A stretch of DNA of 6,834 nucleotides from a bacterium (GTDB lineage: Bacteria > Desulfobacterota > DSWW01): contig JAUWSZ010000133.1 of assembly GCA_030609865.1 (NCBI GenBank), positions 1 through 6,834 of the forward strand, in the 5' to 3' direction. Of the stretch, positions 1-6,266 are shown piece by piece. The notes beneath the pieces were generated by a model, which was not told the origin of the DNA, searched no databases, and worked only from the letters and a program-made list of their open reading frames with translations. The position numbers were made by a program, and so were the translations under genes. Position 1 is the stretch's first letter. Each line of letters begins with the position of its first letter.

Positions 1-214
1 CCCCCAGGATCGCGAGCACCAATGCGGAAGCCAGGGGGAGGACGTTGAGAAAGAGGCCCACGGCAATCCCGCCAAAGGCCACCTCGGCCAGGCCATGGCC
101 CAGCATGGCATCCCTGCGAAGGATCAGGAACACGCCGAGCACGGAACAGGCGACCGAGATCAGGAGGCCGGCGAGCAACGCGCGCTGCATGAACGAATAA
201 GCGAATATTTCCAT
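1..214 (-). CDS. znuB: ABC-3 family zinc/manganese permease, N-terminal part (ZnuB-like)
   Basis: This is the first 71 residues of an integral membrane permease; the rest lies beyond the left edge. Translation from the ATG at 214 gives a short leader (MEIFAYSFMQRALLAG), a hydrophobic segment at about residues 12-32, a basic turn (RR at 33-34), the stretch AMLGHGLAEVAFGG at 36-49, and a second hydrophobic segment at about 47-70. This arrangement is typical of ZnuB/MntB/TroC-type ABC-3 permeases, which form the inner-membrane channel for Zn or Mn uptake. A purine-rich stretch (GGAGTAAGAAGG) just upstream can serve as ribosome binding site. It follows znuA and znuC on the same strand, so the three would make a complete importer, although an unusual 213-bp gap with repeats separates it from znuC. 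Zinc rather than manganese is inferred from the ZnuA and Fur-family neighbours. The family call is secure and the metal is not proven. Confidence 0.85.
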   Translation of the reverse strand, partial: MEIFAYSFMQRALLAGLLISVACSVLGVFLILRRDAMLGHGLAEVAFGGIAVGLFLNVLPLASALVLAILG

Positions 215-427: not shown

Positions 428-1183
428 CTAGTGTTCGTGGTGGATGATGTGAGCACGACCGCCAGCCATCTCCAGCAAGTGGTCGGTCTCGCAGAATTCG
501 TCGTGGCTCCCGTGGAAGTAGAGCCTCTGGTTGATACAAGCCACCTTGTTCACATGCTTGGTGACCACGCCCACATTATGGGTCGAAAACACGACCGCGA
601 GGCCCGTTTCCCGGTTCAAGCGGTCCAGCATGGCGTAGAACCTGTTCTGCGCTTCCGCATCCACCCCGGCTGTCGGCTCGTCCAGGATCAAGATCTCCGG
701 GGACGAGACCCGGGCCCTTGCGATGAAGACGCGCTGTTGCTGCCCCCCGGAAAGCTCCCCGATCGGGCGGCCATGCTTGTCCTCCATGCCCACTGCCTCC
801 AGGGCATCGAGGACGCGCGATTTCCGCTCCCCGGAGCGAAGCCGCCTTCGATTCCCCCCCGCCACGAGCCCCATGGCCACCACCTCCTGAACAGAGGCCG
901 GGAAATAGGGATCGAAGTGTGTCGCCTTCTGGGCAACGTACCCGACCCTTTCCCATTTGCGGAAATCCCGAATCGGTGTCCCAAACAAAGAAACGGCCCC
1001 GCGGAGAGGTCTGAGGAGCCCCAGCATGATCTTGATCAGGGTGGTCTTCCCGGACCCGTTCGGACCGATGACCGCGAGGAAGTCCCCTGCCTGGATCGCA
1101 AGCTCGATATCGACGAGAACGGCGTCTCTCCGGTAGCGGAACTCCACGTGCTCGATGCGGATCAGCGTGTGGTCATCCTTCAC
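428..1183 (-). CDS. znuC: Zinc ABC transporter ATP-binding protein (ZnuC-like)
   Basis: A 251-residue cytoplasmic ABC ATPase that would power the ZnuB channel. All signature elements are present in order: Walker A GPNGSGKTT (residues 40-48), Q-loop Gln85, signature LSGGQ (144-148), Walker B EILILDEP (163-170, catalytic Glu169) and switch His202 (STHN). Length and layout match the ZnuC/MntB ATPase family. Translation starts at a GTG (1183-1181). The ATG two bases upstream (1185) is followed at once by a stop in its own frame. The gene overlaps the 3' end of znuA by 11 bp, which suggests translational coupling. The C-terminus ends in a histidine-rich tail (residues 245-251, four His plus one Glu) that could bind metal. 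Stop codon TAG is at 430-428. Family assignment is certain; zinc as substrate is inferred from the partner protein and the divergent Fur-family gene. Confidence 0.93.
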   Translation of the reverse strand: MKDDHTLIRIEHVEFRYRRDAVLVDIELAIQAGDFLAVIGPNGSGKTTLIKIMLGLLRPLRGAVSLFGTPIRDFRKWERVGYVAQKATHFDPYFPASVQEVVAMGLVAGGNRRRLRSGERKSRVLDALEAVGMEDKHGRPIGELSGGQQQRVFIARARVSSPEILILDEPTAGVDAEAQNRFYAMLDRLNRETGLAVVFSTHNVGVVTKHVNKVACINQRLYFHGSHDEFCETDHLLEMAGGRAHIIHHEH

Positions 1184-2087
1184 ATTCCAGCCCTTTTCTC
1201 AGGTTCTGCAGGTTTTCCTCCAGGATCGAGAGAAAGGTCAACCCCCTGTCAAACTGCTCTTTGGTCATGTTGGCGCCCGGGTTGAGAACGAGTGTCCGCG
1301 CAGCGATCTCCTCTGCCACGACCTGGGCAAGCTTGGGGCTGACCAGGGTTTCGAAGAAGATGTACTTCACCCGCAAGCCCCTCGCGATCTCGATGACCTC
1401 GGCCAGCCTGTGCGGTGTGGGCTCGGAATCTGCGCTGATTCCGTAGAGCGGCACCTGCGTCAATCCGTATCGCTTCGCAAGATAAGCAAAGGCAGAATGT
1501 CCGCCCAGGACGAGGTAGCGGTGGCGACACTCAGCCAACCCTTCTTTGTATCGCTGATCGAGGGCCTGCAGTTTCGCGTTGTAGGCACCAGCGTTCTTTT
1601 GGTAATGGTCCCCGTTTTCCGGATCGATCGACGTCAGTGCCTGGGCGATCCTTGTCACGATCACCTGGTCGTACGAAAGGTCGAGCCAGACGTGGGGATC
1701 GCGGGCTTCAGCGCCTTTTTCGTCGAGCAGCTCGAGGCCCTCGGCAGCAGCCATCACTCCCAGCCCCTCATGGCTGACGCCCCTGACGACATCGGTAGCC
1801 CACGGCTCGAGGTTCTCGCTCACGCACAGGAAGAGGTCCGCCTTGGATATGGCCACAAGGTCACGGGCCTTGGGTTCCCACGCATGGGGCTCGACACCCG
1901 GGGGCAAGAGGAGGCTCACCTCGGCCTTGTCCCCTCCCACAGCCAGGGCAAACTCGTATAGGGGAAACAGGCTGCAGACGACCCGAGGCTTCTCTGTCTC
2001 TATCGTGCTCTTGCAGCCCAGAAGCAGTAAAAGACTGCCTGCAGCCCAGCACAAGAACCCCTGGTGTCTCCGCTTCCGATCTCGCAC
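1173..2087 (-). CDS. znuA: Zinc-binding lipoprotein, ABC transporter solute-binding component (ZnuA-like)
   Basis: A 304-residue extracytoplasmic metal-binding protein of the cluster A-I (ZnuA/TroA/PsaA) family that would deliver metal to ZnuBC. I chose the GTG at 2087-2085. It has a strong Shine-Dalgarno (GGAGGAGGA) 5 bases upstream, and it yields a textbook lipoprotein signal: basic RDRKRRH, hydrophobic core at about residues 10-23, and lipobox LLGC with lipidated Cys25. The frame stays open upstream to 2381, but that would run through the promoter region and bury the signal peptide. Expected ligands are His68 (GVEPHAW), His132 (DPHVW), His197 (GGHSAF), Glu246 (FFE) and position 269, which is Asn (LNPG) rather than the Asp of MntC/PsaA. 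His at the third site favours zinc; manganese proteins usually have Glu there. The long His/Asp-rich loop of many ZnuA proteins is absent. Stop TGA is at 1175-1173, overlapping znuC. Confidence 0.92.
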   Translation of the reverse strand: MRDRKRRHQGFLCWAAGSLLLLLGCKSTIETEKPRVVCSLFPLYEFALAVGGDKAEVSLLLPPGVEPHAWEPKARDLVAISKADLFLCVSENLEPWATDVVRGVSHEGLGVMAAAEGLELLDEKGAEARDPHVWLDLSYDQVIVTRIAQALTSIDPENGDHYQKNAGAYNAKLQALDQRYKEGLAECRHRYLVLGGHSAFAYLAKRYGLTQVPLYGISADSEPTPHRLAEVIEIARGLRVKYIFFETLVSPKLAQVVAEEIAARTLVLNPGANMTKEQFDRGLTFLSILEENLQNLRKGLECEG

Positions 2088-2106: not shown

Positions 2107-2135
2107 AGTATATGGCTCGCCGGCCACAAGTGCAA
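2107..2135 (-). promoter_or_regulatory. Sigma70-type promoter of znuA
   Basis: On the minus strand TTGCAC (2135-2130) is followed by a 17-bp spacer and TATACT (2112-2107). The -10 matches the consensus at five of six positions and the -35 at four of six. Five bases of the -35 lie inside the inverted repeat at 2131-2145, so a bound repressor would block RNA polymerase. Transcription should begin near 2100. Confidence 0.65.
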
Positions 2136-2145
2136 CACAGTTGCA
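2131..2145. promoter_or_regulatory. Operator candidate 1: perfect 6-3-6 inverted repeat at the znuA promoter
   Basis: TGCAAC-ACA-GTTGCA is a perfect dyad that overlaps the znuA -35 element. A one-mismatch copy sits 61 bp away (centre to centre) at the zur promoter. It can also be written TGCAA-N5-TTGCA. The position next to a Fur-family gene and the repetition at both promoters argue that it is the binding site of that regulator; no binding data are available. Confidence 0.7.
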
Positions 2146-2191
2146 AGCAGAAAGGAAAGATTTCCCGGTGCCGACTCGGCCTCCGCCCTCA

Positions 2192-2206
2192 TGCAACCCG
2201 GTTGCG
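2192..2206. promoter_or_regulatory. Operator candidate 2: near-perfect 6-3-6 inverted repeat at the zur promoter
   Basis: TGCAAC-CCG-GTTGCG matches operator 1 in both half-sites except the last base, and differs only in the central triplet. It overlaps the -35 of the plus-strand promoter exactly as operator 1 overlaps the znuA -35. It implies autoregulation of the Fur-family gene. Confidence 0.65.
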
Positions 2207-2230
2207 CTTGGGGCCCAATCTTCCTATAGT
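2202..2230 (+). promoter_or_regulatory. Sigma70-type promoter of the Fur/Zur-family gene
   Basis: TTGCGC (2202-2207), a 17-bp spacer and TATAGT (2225-2230). The -10 matches the consensus at five of six positions. The -35 is weak (TTG plus poor bases), as is common for promoters with an embedded operator. The expected transcription start (about 2237-2238) coincides with the first ATG of the gene, which bears on start-codon choice. Confidence 0.6.
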
Positions 2231-2237
2231 GTGTACC

Positions 2238-2687
2238 ATGCAAAGGGTTGCCGACAAGATGCCTGCGGGAGACGGGACCGAGCAGGCGGCCGAGATCCTG
2301 CGGAACGCCAAGCTGCGGGTCACTTCGTGCAGAACCTCCCTGTTGAATCTCCTCCTTCATGCAAAGGAACCGCTCACACAAAAGGAATTGATGCAGAACC
2401 TAGAGGAGCGGGGGTTCAACCGGGTCACGATCTACCGAGCCCTGCAAACCTTCCTGGACGCATTCATCGTCCATCGCATTGTCACCGAGGACCGGACATG
2501 GCGTTTTGCGATCACCCACTGTGGCCACCGAGGCCACTGTCACCCCCACTTCACCTGCCGCAGGTGTGGCAGGATTCGGTGCCTCGACGGGGTCGCCATT
2601 CCGGCCGTCAGCTTGGAGGGGCATCGGATCGAGGCACAGGCCATGTACTTGTGGGGACTCTGCCCCGGATGTCTACAAAGGGAGTAG
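2238..2687 (+). CDS. zur: Fur-family metalloregulator, probably Zur
   Basis: A 149-residue Fur-superfamily repressor. The N-terminal winged helix spans roughly residues 15-85, with recognition helix NRVTIYRALQTF (61-72). The C-terminal dimerisation/metal domain carries HPHFTC (102-107), the structural zinc cysteines Cys107/Cys110 (CRRC) and Cys142/Cys145 (CPGC), plus His79 and clustered His94, 97 and 100. In such proteins metal loading causes dimers to bind operators and repress. Divergence from znuA-znuC and the twin operators make Zur the most likely type; a nickel or other sensor is not excluded. The start is uncertain. ATG 2238 has no Shine-Dalgarno and lies about 7 bases past the -10. 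An in-frame ATG at 2259 (142 residues) has AAAGGG at 2242-2247 upstream and a leader that fits the predicted promoter. The open frame further upstream runs through the promoter and is not credible. Confidence 0.88.
   Translation: MQRVADKMPAGDGTEQAAEILRNAKLRVTSCRTSLLNLLLHAKEPLTQKELMQNLEERGFNRVTIYRALQTFLDAFIVHRIVTEDRTWRFAITHCGHRGHCHPHFTCRRCGRIRCLDGVAIPAVSLEGHRIEAQAMYLWGLCPGCLQRE
2242..2247 (+). promoter_or_regulatory. Possible ribosome binding site for an internal zur start at 2259
   Basis: AAAGGG lies 11 bases before the ATG at 2259. If transcription starts at about 2238 as the promoter predicts, this is the only Shine-Dalgarno-like sequence in the leader. Spacing is slightly long, so this is suggestive only. 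Confidence 0.35.
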
Positions 2688-2695
2688 CCCGCCCT

Positions 2696-3691
2696 ATGAA
2701 GAATCATCAGTCAGCCATCGATCGCATCCGGGAGACCATCAGGACGAAAAGCCGGTTCGTCTTGACCACCCACGTCAACCCGGACGGTGACGGGATCGGA
2801 TCCGAGCTTGCGCTCTATCATCACTTGAAGGATCTCAGAAAGGACGTGTGCATCTTGAATCCCTCACCCCTTCCCGATACGTATCTGTTTCTGGATCCGG
2901 AGAGAACCAGGATTCAGGAGTACGAGGAACGTCACGCCCGCACCGTTCTGGAGGCAGATGCCCTCTTCTTGCTCGATCTATCGAGCACGGATCGGCTGGC
3001 CGCCCTCGGCAGGGCCGTTGTGGGAAAGGGCCCCTTGCAAATCTGTGTCGATCATCATCCCGAACAGGGCTCATCGTGCGACCTGGCCTGGATCGACGAT
3101 CATGCCGCTGCAACGGGGGAGCTGGTTTTCTCTCTTCTCAAACAGGATGGATGCAAAATCTCACCCGCCATCGCCGAAGCCCTCTACGTTGCCCTCCTGA
3201 CGGATACGGGCAGCTTCCGATACGCGAACGTGACGGCCCAGACACATCGCGTGGTTGCCGAGCTTCTCGAGACCGGCATCGACCATCCTGGGATCTACCG
3301 GCGTATCTACGAGAGCAACAGCTGGAACCAGTCCCTGCTGTTCGCGAAGACGATCGGGGACATGCAGCGGGCCTGCAACGACAGGGTGGCCTGGATGAAG
3401 ATCACCCAGGAGATGTTCGAGGAAACCGGGGCTCGCGAGAAGGACGCCGAAGGCCTCGCCGAGTTCCCGAGGAGCATCGGCGAGGTACAGATTGCGATTC
3501 TGTTCATCGAGCAGGCGTCGGGTCACACACGGGTGAGATTCCGTTCGAGAAATGATATAGCTGTCGATGCGCTGGCCAGAGAACTCGGTGGGGGCGGACA
3601 CAGGAATGCATCCGCCACGCTTCTCAAAGAAACCACCCTGGACGAGGCCATCGACAAGGTTTTGGGCTTGGCAGGCAAGTACCTTCAGTAG
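2696..3691 (+). CDS. nrnA: DHH/DHHA1 family phosphoesterase, NrnA-type oligoribonuclease / pAp phosphatase
   Basis: A 331-residue cytoplasmic enzyme. Family members degrade very short oligonucleotides (nanoRNA, pGpG) to mononucleotides and dephosphorylate pAp using Mn2+. The DHH domain shows motif I HVNPDGDG (His26, Asp30, Asp32), motif II LLDLSSTDR (Asp94), motif III VDHHPE (Asp119-His120-His121) and motif IV LLTDTGSFRY (Asp170). The C-terminal DHHA1 domain carries the substrate-binding GGGGHRNASA (298-307). Length is normal for NrnA and no key residue is missing. The ATG at 2696 has GGGAG at 2680-2684 upstream. An in-frame ATG at 2669 would overlap zur and lacks comparable support. Only 8 bp separate the zur stop from this start, so the two are very probably co-transcribed. 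That would place this Mn-dependent enzyme under the metalloregulator's promoter, though an internal promoter cannot be ruled out. Confidence 0.9.
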   Translation: MKNHQSAIDRIRETIRTKSRFVLTTHVNPDGDGIGSELALYHHLKDLRKDVCILNPSPLPDTYLFLDPERTRIQEYEERHARTVLEADALFLLDLSSTDRLAALGRAVVGKGPLQICVDHHPEQGSSCDLAWIDDHAAATGELVFSLLKQDGCKISPAIAEALYVALLTDTGSFRYANVTAQTHRVVAELLETGIDHPGIYRRIYESNSWNQSLLFAKTIGDMQRACNDRVAWMKITQEMFEETGAREKDAEGLAEFPRSIGEVQIAILFIEQASGHTRVRFRSRNDIAVDALARELGGGGHRNASATLLKETTLDEAIDKVLGLAGKYLQ

Positions 3692-3717
3692 GGACCAGGG
3701 GTCAGGGATCAGGCCCC
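3690..3717 (+). repeat. Short heptanucleotide repeat (AGGGRYC type) after nrnA
   Basis: Beginning inside the nrnA stop codon, the sequence is AGGGACC, AGGGGTC, AGGGATC, AGGCCCC: four degenerate 7-bp units in tandem. It has the same period and the same AGG beginning as the repeats between znuC and znuB but a different body. It lies in the 94-bp gap before hisI. A weak GGGG...CCCC fold is possible, but there is no T-run, so it is not called a terminator. Confidence 0.55.
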
Positions 3718-3785
3718 ACCCTTGTGCCCCCCAGGGAAAACGACCAATGTGAGGAAGGAATCCAACCGCACAGGAAATGGGAACG

Positions 3786-4199
3786 ATGTCTGATACAGAA
3801 ACCAAGCTGGAAGAGGGGACCGAGCTGTCCCTTGATTTTCAGAAGCTGGGCAAGGTCGCTGCCTGCGGGGAGGCCGTGGTCCCGGTGGCCGTGCAGGACG
3901 CAGATACCAAAGAGGTCCTCATCCTCGCTTACGTGAACGATCAAGCCCTGGACTACTCGGTGAAGCACGGCGTAGCCGCGTTCTGGAGCACTTCGAGGAA
4001 AGAGCTGTGGGTCAAGGGGGCCACCTCAGGGGACATGCTCGACCTGGTGGAGATCCGAGTCAACTGCGAACAGAATTCCCTGCTTTACCTGGTGCGCCCC
4101 CGTGGAAGGGGGGCCTGCCACACGAAGGACGAGGCCGGAAAGCCTCGCCGCGCCTGTTACTACCGCAAGCTGAAGAACGGAAAGCTCGAGCCCTTGTGA
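3786..4199 (+). CDS. hisI: Phosphoribosyl-AMP cyclohydrolase (HisI), stand-alone, with altered Mg site
   Basis: A 137-residue HisI domain protein; HisI opens the adenine ring of phosphoribosyl-AMP in the third step of histidine synthesis. Matching family features are VAVQDADTKEVLILAYVN (34-51), FWSTSRKELWVKGATSG (66-82), VEIRVNCEQNSLLYLV (88-103), ACHT (110-113) and RACYYRKL (122-129). The three zinc-ligand cysteines are present as Cys94, Cys111 and Cys124. The canonical Asp-Cys-Asp-x-Asp that also binds magnesium reads Asn93-Cys94-Glu95-Gln96-Asn97, so all three aspartates are replaced. There is an insertion of about six residues between the last two cysteines. No HisE domain is fused. ATG 3786 is preferred over ATG 3777 because AGGAA at 3772-3776 is correctly spaced only for the former. 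It lies on the same strand 94 bp after nrnA. It could be the normal enzyme of a divergent subfamily or a HisI-like paralogue. Confidence 0.87.
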   Translation: MSDTETKLEEGTELSLDFQKLGKVAACGEAVVPVAVQDADTKEVLILAYVNDQALDYSVKHGVAAFWSTSRKELWVKGATSGDMLDLVEIRVNCEQNSLLYLVRPRGRGACHTKDEAGKPRRACYYRKLKNGKLEPL

Positions 4200-4224: not shown

Positions 4225-6266
4225 CCCTCTGAAAGCACTTTCCGGATCACCGCAGCCAGGTCCGCTACCTTGTATGGTTTCACCAGCACCCCGTCGAAGC
4301 CATACTCCTTGAACTGCGACATGACAGGGTCATCCGAATAGCCACTCGAGACGATCACCTTTGCATCCGGATCCAGCCCTCGGAGCTTTCTGACCAGCCT
4401 CTTGCCCCCGAGCTCTCCCGGAATCGTCAAATCCATGATGACCACGTCAAAGGGACGCTCTTCTTTCATTGCCTTTTCGTATAGATCGAGCCCCTCGCTT
4501 CCATCTTTGGCAAAGCCTACTTCATACCCGAGCCGCTTCAGCACTTCCCCGGCCGATCTCCGGACAATCGCCTCGTCGTCGACCACGAGCACTCGGCCCT
4601 CACCCCTGGTCGGTTCAACCTGCACGCCTTCCCTCGGCTCGGCCGACGTCTCGGAGGTGGGCAAATAGACATGAAAGGCTGTTCCTCCCCCCAAGGCTGA
4701 TTCCACCTCCATGTGTCCTCCATGACGATTGACAATCGAGAAGGCAATCGCAAGACCCAAGCCTCGTCCCCGCTCTTTGGTCGTGAAAAAGGGGTCGAAG
4801 ATCTTCGGGAGCTGCTCCTCGGGTATGCCGCTCCCTTGATCTTCCACGGAGAGCTTCACGTATTTTCCTTCCTCCAACTTTCCTCTCTCGTTTTCCTTGA
4901 TCCGCATGTTTTCAGCACGTATCGTGACGACCCCGCCCTCGGGCATGGCCTGGTCCGCGTTGATGACCAGGTTTTGGACGACCTGACTCAGCTGCCCTTC
5001 GTCCGCACTTACCAGCCAGAGATCATCCGGCATCGAGTACTCGCATCTCGTGTTCGACCCGCTCAGGGCAAATGCAGCACTCTCTTGCAGGAACCTCGAG
5101 ATACGAACGATCTTCTTGATCGGTTCTCCACCCTTTGCAAAGGTGAGAAGTTGCTGCGTGAGGCCCTTGGCACGCAAGGAAGCCTTTTCCGCATCGACCA
5201 GCATCTGAGAGATTTCATCGTCGAATTCGCCGTAGAGTCTCGCCATCGATATGTTGGCCAGGATTGCCGTCAAAATGTTGTTGAAATCATGGGCGATGCC
5301 TCCGGCAAGAACGCCCAGGGCCTGGAGTCGTTGGATGTTGCCCAGCTCCTGTTCCATCCGGTTGCGATCCGTCACGTCAACGATCGAGACCAGGAGCCTG
5401 GCCAGTGTCCTCTCGTAAGCCCTCGGGATCGACCATCGAATCTGGATATCCTTCCTTGTTCCCTCGAGCGTCCGGTTGACCGCCTCGCTCTCGAAAAAGG
5501 ACTTCCCTTCGGCGATGGCGATCAGCCCTTCCCGAAAAACCTCGTAGGACCGTTCCGTAAAGATTCGACCCAGGCCCTCGATGAAATCCTCCTTGCTCTT
5601 CGCTTCGTACACGTCCAGGGTGGCCTGGTTTACATCGACAATCTGCACCATGGCGGCACACTGCTCGACCGCCTCCGGGTTCCTCTCAAAATATCCCCTG
5701 AAGTCCGTGACACCCTCGTTCCGCAACTGCTCGATATATTGCTTCACCTCCGAGTAGTCTTCCTCCCAGAGCGAAATCGGCGAGTCGTCGAACAGCGTGC
5801 GGTACCTTTCGATCGTACGTTGCAGTGCGTCGGCGGTCTTCTTGCGTTCCGTGATGTCCATCATCATCCCGGACAGAATATCTTGTTCGAGCACTTCACT
5901 GACGAGTACGTTCTTGACCTTGCCGGTCTTCGTAAGCAGCCGGATTTCTCTTCCGACCTCCTTCCCCTTTTCCCTGAGGTCTGCAAGCAAGGCTTCCCTT
6001 TCTTCCGGATCTTCGTATGTATCCAAAACACGAATCGACCGCAGTTCTTCGGCCGAGTCGTATTCCAGCATCGAAACGAGGGCGTCATTCACGTAAAGGA
6101 TTTCGCCCTCGATGCTACTCTTGAAGATCCCGACAAGGGCATTGTCCACGAGGTTTCGGTAGTTCTTCTCAGATTCCTGCGGTTCAGCCTCCAGGCCCTC
6201 CAGTTCCACAATCCGCGCACGCAGATCTTTCATTTCATCGATCAGTTGCTTCTTCGTCTTCCTCAT
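4221..6266 (-). CDS. PAS-PAS hybrid sensor histidine kinase with C-terminal receiver domain
   Basis: A 681-residue signalling protein with no membrane segment or signal peptide, hence cytoplasmic. In order: a charged N-terminal helix, probably coiled-coil (1-30); PAS domain 1 (about 33-141, ending DITERK); a PAS-like domain 2 (about 150-300) beginning LFDDSPISLWEEDYSEVK; a dimerisation/phosphoacceptor domain with H-box HDFNN (His326); a GHKL ATPase with N-box NLVINADQA (Asn436), G1 DQGSG (476-480), F-box FDPFF (about 490-494) and G2 GRGLGLA (500-506); and a receiver (about 557-678) with acidic pair Asp563/Asp564, phosphoacceptor Asp612 (VIMDLTIPG), Ser640/641 and Lys663. All catalytic residues are intact. 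ATG 6266 is chosen because AAGG lies 8 bases upstream. The frame stays open to a TTG at 6398, but that extension is low-complexity and contains a promoter-like sequence. There is no output domain and no partner regulator in the window, so the target is unknown. Confidence 0.9.
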   Translation of the reverse strand: MRKTKKQLIDEMKDLRARIVELEGLEAEPQESEKNYRNLVDNALVGIFKSSIEGEILYVNDALVSMLEYDSAEELRSIRVLDTYEDPEEREALLADLREKGKEVGREIRLLTKTGKVKNVLVSEVLEQDILSGMMMDITERKKTADALQRTIERYRTLFDDSPISLWEEDYSEVKQYIEQLRNEGVTDFRGYFERNPEAVEQCAAMVQIVDVNQATLDVYEAKSKEDFIEGLGRIFTERSYEVFREGLIAIAEGKSFFESEAVNRTLEGTRKDIQIRWSIPRAYERTLARLLVSIVDVTDRNRMEQELGNIQRLQALGVLAGGIAHDFNNILTAILANISMARLYGEFDDEISQMLVDAEKASLRAKGLTQQLLTFAKGGEPIKKIVRISRFLQESAAFALSGSNTRCEYSMPDDLWLVSADEGQLSQVVQNLVINADQAMPEGGVVTIRAENMRIKENERGKLEEGKYVKLSVEDQGSGIPEEQLPKIFDPFFTTKERGRGLGLAIAFSIVNRHGGHMEVESALGGGTAFHVYLPTSETSAEPREGVQVEPTRGEGRVLVVDDEAIVRRSAGEVLKRLGYEVGFAKDGSEGLDLYEKAMKEERPFDVVIMDLTIPGELGGKRLVRKLRGLDPDAKVIVSSGYSDDPVMSQFKEYGFDGVLVKPYKVADLAAVIRKVLSEG

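Follow-up and report, generated by a model that had tools for sequence, protein, structure and literature searches.

A divergent znuA/zur control region with a Desulfovibrio-type Zur box, read as two separate operators predicted to occlude their own promoters

The window (the whole 6,834-bp stretch of DNA analysed here) very probably carries the divergent znuA/zur control region of a Fur-family zinc regulator, with two Zur boxes of the type predicted for Desulfovibrio that would act as separate, locally occluding operators.

On its minus strand, the window encodes znuA (1173..2087), a zinc-type ABC substrate-binding lipoprotein of 304 aa from GTG 2087, a start that lies behind GAGGAGGA; znuC (428..1183), the ABC transporter ATPase (PF00005), whose best NCBIfam model, AztA, scored below its cut-off; and the first 71 residues of znuB (2..214), an ABC-3 permease (PF00950, E 6.7e-16) that continues past the window edge. 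The znuA product matches PF01297 (ZnuA) with an E of 7.6e-76, in residues encoded from position 2078 on. The plus strand has zur (2238..2687), a Fur-family regulator (PF01475) of 149 aa from ATG 2238, followed by a DHH/DHHA1 gene (2696..3691; PF01368 and PF02272), which starts 8 bp past zur and probably shares an operon with it. The gene order is therefore znuA-znuC-znuB leftward, and zur, the DHH/DHHA1 gene and hisI rightward. The order of zur, a DHH-type gene and hisI is common to the window (2238-4199) and to the nearest related locus, L001 of genome G001 (5001-6895). HisI (PRA-CH) is presumably a zinc enzyme, and the Cys residues of its product seem to be retained; on these grounds, transcription of hisI might rise under zinc starvation, if the zur operon extends as far as hisI.

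The control region (2088-2237, 150 bp) separates znuA, read on the minus strand from GTG 2087, from the divergent zur, read from ATG 2238. It contains two predicted Zur boxes. Zur box 1 (2131..2145, TGCAACACAGTTGCA) is a perfect 6-3-6 dyad, TGCAAC and GTTGCA around ACA, with 0 mismatches, and would be the operator of the znuA promoter. Zur box 2 (2192..2206, TGCAACCCGGTTGCG) has TGCAAC and GTTGCG around CCG, with 1 mismatch, and would be the operator of the zur promoter. On the minus strand, the putative znuA promoter has the -35 hexamer TTGCAC (2130..2135, read 2135-2130) in the promoter-proximal half of box 1 and, after a 17-bp spacer (2129-2113), the -10 hexamer TATACT (2107..2112, read 2112-2107). 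On the plus strand, the putative zur promoter has the -35 hexamer TTGCGC (2202..2207) in the promoter-proximal half of box 2, a 17-bp spacer (2208-2224) and the -10 hexamer TATAGT (2225..2230), with the first ATG 7 nt further on; transcription of both genes would start behind these -10 hexamers. In both promoters the first base of the -35 hexamer is base 11 of the dyad and the last is one base beyond it, and the dyad centres (2138 and 2199) are 61 bp apart. The initial annotation had described these dyads, -35 and -10 hexamers, 17-bp spacers and the distance between the centres, and every one of its positions is right to the base.

Each -10 hexamer agrees with TATAAT in 5/6 letters at a 17-bp spacing, as asked of a sigma-70 -10. 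The -35 hexamers each share 3/6 letters with TTGACA, below the 4/6 asked of a sigma-70 -35, and a generic sigma-70 scan requiring at least 4/6 reported no promoter in the control region. Because its -10 hexamer ends 7 nt before the first ATG (2225-2240 from the hexamer through the ATG), zur may be transcribed without a leader; the column of that ATG is also where 11 of 23 aligned homologues start.

The two dyads are not random occurrences. At no more than 1 mismatch, the window has two dyads in total, boxes 1 and 2. When the stretch 2079-2237 (159 bp, made up of the 150 bp between the start codons and 9 bp of znuA) was Markov-shuffled, at least one dyad appeared in 8 of 20,000 shuffles and two dyads in 0 of 20,000; the corresponding figures for the shuffled whole window were 22/2,000 and 0/2,000. 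With up to 3 mismatches allowed, the window has 6 sites vs 1.97 expected, and the four sites beyond boxes 1 and 2, with three mismatches each, are taken as chance.

Both boxes resemble one predicted in 2004 for delta-proteobacteria (PMC545781). That source gives this Zur_D box as a 17-bp palindrome, ATGCAACNNNGTTGCAT, with the consensus ATGCAACnnnGTTGCAT, predicted upstream of znuABC-zur operons in two Desulfovibrio genomes. Against its 15-bp core, TGCAACnnnGTTGCA, box 1 has 0 mismatches and box 2 has 1, and the cores in the window agree with the consensus in 12/12 and 11/12 of the specified letters, respectively. Neither site has the full outer A...T pair of the 17-bp consensus (G...A at box 1, A...C at box 2), and this pair is also variable in L001. 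A literature search, in sources available in part, turned up no experimental test of the predicted box. In the Desulfovibrio regulon, too, this box precedes zinc ABC transporter genes together with a Fur-family regulator; however, a single box stands there before the znuABC-zur operon, whereas in the window zur is divergent and each direction has a box of its own (PMC545781).

Among better-studied systems, Pseudomonas aeruginosa has znuA divergent from zur, as in the window, and the experimental report on it describes a Zur that represses znuA and itself and binds the znuA/zur intergenic region in a zinc-dependent manner (PMC3781045). By binding to both boxes of the window, Zur would likewise repress its own gene along with the zinc importer. 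The P. aeruginosa intergenic region has 70 bp vs 150 bp in the window, and its zur-znuC-znuB arrangement differs from that of the window, in which znuC and znuB sit with znuA (PMC3781045). The control regions of Bacillus subtilis yciC and Streptomyces coelicolor znuA, as presented in PMC6103462, also have two Zur boxes each, one of them overlapping the -35; there, both boxes are on one promoter (-35 and -10), whereas the window has one box per divergent promoter.

The regulator alignment was run as a profile on genome contigs and found 177 relatives, the best 80 of which were retained as loci. L001 is the closest by far, with a regulator 81% identical to that of the window, the next one being 50% identical. 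Its gene order is as in the window, zur being followed by a DHH-like gene and hisI (PF01502), and the other side being occupied by a znuA-like gene, an ATPase and a permease (PF00950); the ATPase, znuA and DHH genes were identified from their ORFs alone. The counterpart of box 1 (3841-3855) has one mismatch, and znuA is preceded by TGCAACTCCGTTGCGC-N17-TATACT, with the -35 hexamer TTGCGC in the place of the TTGCAC of the window. Before zur, L001 has TGCAACCCGGTTGCGC-N17-TATAGT, with the -35 hexamer TTGCGC, and the 17 letters ATGCAACCCGGTTGCGC of box 2 of the window recur identically there (4910-4926). Both dyads and both 17-bp spacers, the conservation of which the initial annotation had named as a check on its reading, are kept in this one close relative.

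The same had been suggested for the occurrence of the dyad at other metal genes, which was scanned for in the genome of this nearest relative. In G001 (8.9 Mb), dyads at up to 1 mismatch occur in 10 places, with 2 for the control pattern. The composite "dyad + 19 + TA[GT]NNT" occurs exactly in 3 places, and a fourth place has it with one mismatch (with 1 mismatch allowed, the control gave 1); a tighter composite with TATANT finds the identical 3 places (control: 0), namely before znuA, before zur and at a third site on the same contig. The third module (L127 4821-10464, G001:C148) heads a run of genes on one strand that includes a second ZnuA-type ABC system. Its first gene encodes a small protein with the motif HCHGGHEH and its second a His-rich protein of porin type, matched weakly by Porin_O_P; then come genes for ZnuA (PF01297), an ABC ATPase and an ABC-3 permease, and last one for a lipoprotein very rich in His. 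The run is likely a zinc scavenging system. All three exact composites are therefore at zinc-type or regulator genes. The lipoprotein of this run has many HEHDH-like stretches. As for the distances to start codons, in L001 an in-frame ATG lies 6 nt past TATAGT, and in the third module TATATT is followed by 7 nt to an ATG.

Because the boxes match a published one, are conserved in L001 and are restricted in G001 to zinc-type genes, the coordinated repression of uptake genes and regulator that the initial annotation had predicted, through a covered -35, is well supported as a prediction. A further part of that proposal did not hold up, namely that Zur dimers on both boxes would meet across the 61 bp in a short repression loop or bridge. 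In its favor, the two boxes are 61 bp apart, near six turns, and Fur-family dimers can touch on DNA, E. coli Zur being described as two cooperating dimers per box (PMC6103462). In L001, however, the boxes are separated by 1,070 bp that include a gene for a protein with thrombospondin type 3 (TSP_3) repeats, so a loop requiring 61 bp does not belong to the conserved part of the mechanism. The 61 bp themselves amount to 5.81 turns at 10.5 bp/turn, which leaves about 69 degrees to six full turns (48 degrees at 10.4); the distance was given correctly, but with a phase 48-69 degrees out, the wording that dimers would lie on nearly the same face was generous. According to PMC6103462, only enterobacterial and actinobacterial Zurs retain the residues through which E. 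coli Zur dimers make contact, and the boxes of two-box promoters most likely work independently.

Pairs of boxes at comparable distances were searched for in related genomes. None 47-77 bp apart was found in the 395 genomes of the phylum of G001, with a pattern that detects the pair of the window, or in 347 genomes of the planctomycete class of L012 (a Sedimentisphaerales MAG by its title), with a stricter pattern that also detects it; these scans, as well as the composite scans over phylum and planctomycete genomes, match exact letters and miss weaker sites. Pairs 34-64 bp apart were present in 2/395 phylum genomes (34 and 57 bp), with a pattern that misses the pair of the window through the mismatch in box 2. 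In the planctomycete class, 9/347 genomes have pairs, at 24, 31, 32, 33, 34, 34, 36, 37 and 39 bp, and these distances do not cluster on whole turns. The idea that the close planctomycete pairs bracket one promoter was considered and found weak, since a -10-like hexamer lies between the boxes in 6/9 pairs vs about 3.3/9 for base-shuffled spacers. A literature search for Zur (zinc uptake regulator) together with a DNA loop found no paper. Given the 1,070 bp in L001 and the lack of 47-77 bp pairs in the 395 and 347 genomes, a loop or bridge between boxes 1 and 2 was rejected as unsupported and is considered extremely unlikely. The preferred reading is that of two operators, each predicted to occlude the promoter next to it.

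Boxes of this kind are frequent beside relatives of the regulator. At up to 1 mismatch they occur in 56/80 of the regulator-relative loci, vs 0-5/80 in five Markov controls, and as exact boxes in 45/80, vs 0-1/80. For the phylum of G001, a regulator relative at an E of up to 1e-12 was matched in 41 of the 395 genomes, and the best 30 of these 41 were taken as loci; 15/30, G001 included, have a box at up to 1 mismatch, with 0/30 in the controls. The loci counted come from related organisms, so these counts are not independent, and 24/80 regulator-relative loci and 15/30 phylum loci have no box at up to 1 mismatch. In 9 of the 29 phylum loci other than G001, a box starts 18-80 bp ahead of the regulator's first matched residue. 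Five of the phylum loci (L103, L104, L108, L116 and L120) have a further box about 360-445 bp past that residue, which is near or just behind the end of the regulator and perhaps serves the next gene. In many planctomycete loci, the box is located roughly 800-1,000 bp ahead of the regulator. Among the three such loci examined for the gene in between, it encodes a ZIP zinc transporter in L058 and, in L038 (4198-4986), a His-rich membrane protein without a Pfam match, possibly an unknown zinc transporter; a His-rich membrane protein resembling that of L038 also lies between box and regulator in L016.

For the 80 boxes found among 109 loci, -10-like hexamers (at least 5/6 letters of TATAAT, with A at position 2 and T at position 6, 3-44 bp off) were counted by position. 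Read on the regulator-gene strand, the near half of the dyad has such a hexamer at 16-17 bp in 22 boxes, and in 14 boxes one lies at 5-7 bp, which corresponds to 16-18 bp from the far half; every remaining distance has 0-3 boxes, and on the opposite strand the near and far classes have 2 and 1. Counted per box-bearing locus, with a T required before the far half, a -10 stands in the near register in 23 loci and in the far register in 13, one locus having both, which makes 35/70; on the opposite strand 3/70 loci have a -10 at 16-18 bp, among them L001 with its znuA promoter. Because the -10 hexamers cluster at these two distances, it appears that the (T)TGCAA half-site can double as the -35, in either half of the dyad.

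Among the 41 phylum genomes with a regulator relative, the exact near-register composite (16-18 bp) was present in only two, G001 and G355, so the near register is not general in this phylum. The exact composite of G355 (G355:C170:9000-9037) is about 380 bp from the start of the regulator match, on the same strand. The exact far register (-10 at 16-18 bp from the far half) was found in 0/41 of these genomes; it occurred in regulator-relative loci mostly titled Planctomycetota. With exact patterns, the near register was present in two of three planctomycete genomes. The design is thus one of the lineage of the window and of planctomycetes, and not of the phylum of G001 as a whole. A tentative extension, which we put somewhat below an even chance, is that in the lineage of the window and in Phycisphaerae the (T)TGCAA half-site is itself the -35, and that operator and promoter evolve as one module with two registers, the -10 being 16-18 bp from the near or from the far half.

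The name and the metal of the regulator are assigned from its context, that is, from the box and the zinc-type neighbors, because its scores miss the Zur cut-off and are better for PerR. The protein belongs to the Fur family by its domain (PF01475, E 6.2e-12, 46.2 bits vs a cut-off of 23.1). Homologues found numbered 43, and 23 were aligned with it. It has two CxxC pairs, C107/C110 and C142/C145 (alignment A1), which we take to be a structural zinc site; C107 is invariant, and C110, C142 and C145 are present in at least 90% of the 24 aligned sequences. None of the 7 NCBIfam models listed for it reached its cut-off. The Zur equivalog PRK11639, which may represent only part of the Zur lineages, gave 30.5 bits vs 167, and the PerR model gave 48.2 vs 180, better than the Zur score and still below the cut-off. 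By profile, the nearest PDB match is PerR (2fe3), and E. coli Zur (4mtd) ranks fifth.

These PerR matches would fit a Fur-family sensor of manganese, iron or peroxide, with the ABC system carrying that metal, as would the zinc or manganese carried by substrate-binding proteins of this family and the many manganese or iron binders among the 52 matches of the znuA product to solved chains. Such a sensor is nevertheless very unlikely here. The three best of those 52 matches are YcdH (2o1e), presumably a zinc binder, and two chains of the zinc-binding AdcA (7jj8 and 7jj9). The znuA product also has a His, in GGHSAF, at what we assume to be a metal-binding position that is usually Glu in manganese binders. 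The divergent znuABC-type genes link the regulator to zinc uptake, the third module of G001 heads the His-rich run with a second ZnuA-type system, and the box of L058 stands before a ZIP transporter ahead of the regulator. Moreover, PMC545781 predicts this very box for znuABC-zur operons of Desulfovibrio.

With zinc as the probable signal and separate operators as the preferred reading, one zinc-loaded Zur dimer would occupy each 15-17 bp dyad when zinc is plentiful and would cover the -35. Since the promoter-proximal half of the dyad is the -35 hexamer, a bound dimer would block RNA polymerase at that promoter, and the two operators would act separately, with no interaction needed. When zinc is scarce, Zur would leave both dyads, and znuABC as well as zur, with the DHH gene behind it, would be transcribed. 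The occlusion of a -35 by a metal-loaded Fur-family dimer, with autorepression, is a textbook mechanism. Zinc import and the repressor gene are probably shut off together in this organism, in what looks like ordinary zinc control. The window would extend the 2004 prediction from two Desulfovibrio genomes (PMC545781) to other lineages and adds a precise promoter geometry to the predicted Zur box, and the three-promoter zinc regulon of G001 offers a testable case in an uncultured relative. If the tentative two-register module is true, zinc repressibility would be built into any promoter of this kind from its origin, and copies of a single 39-bp module could enlarge the regulon, for which the three exact copies in G001 may be a hint.
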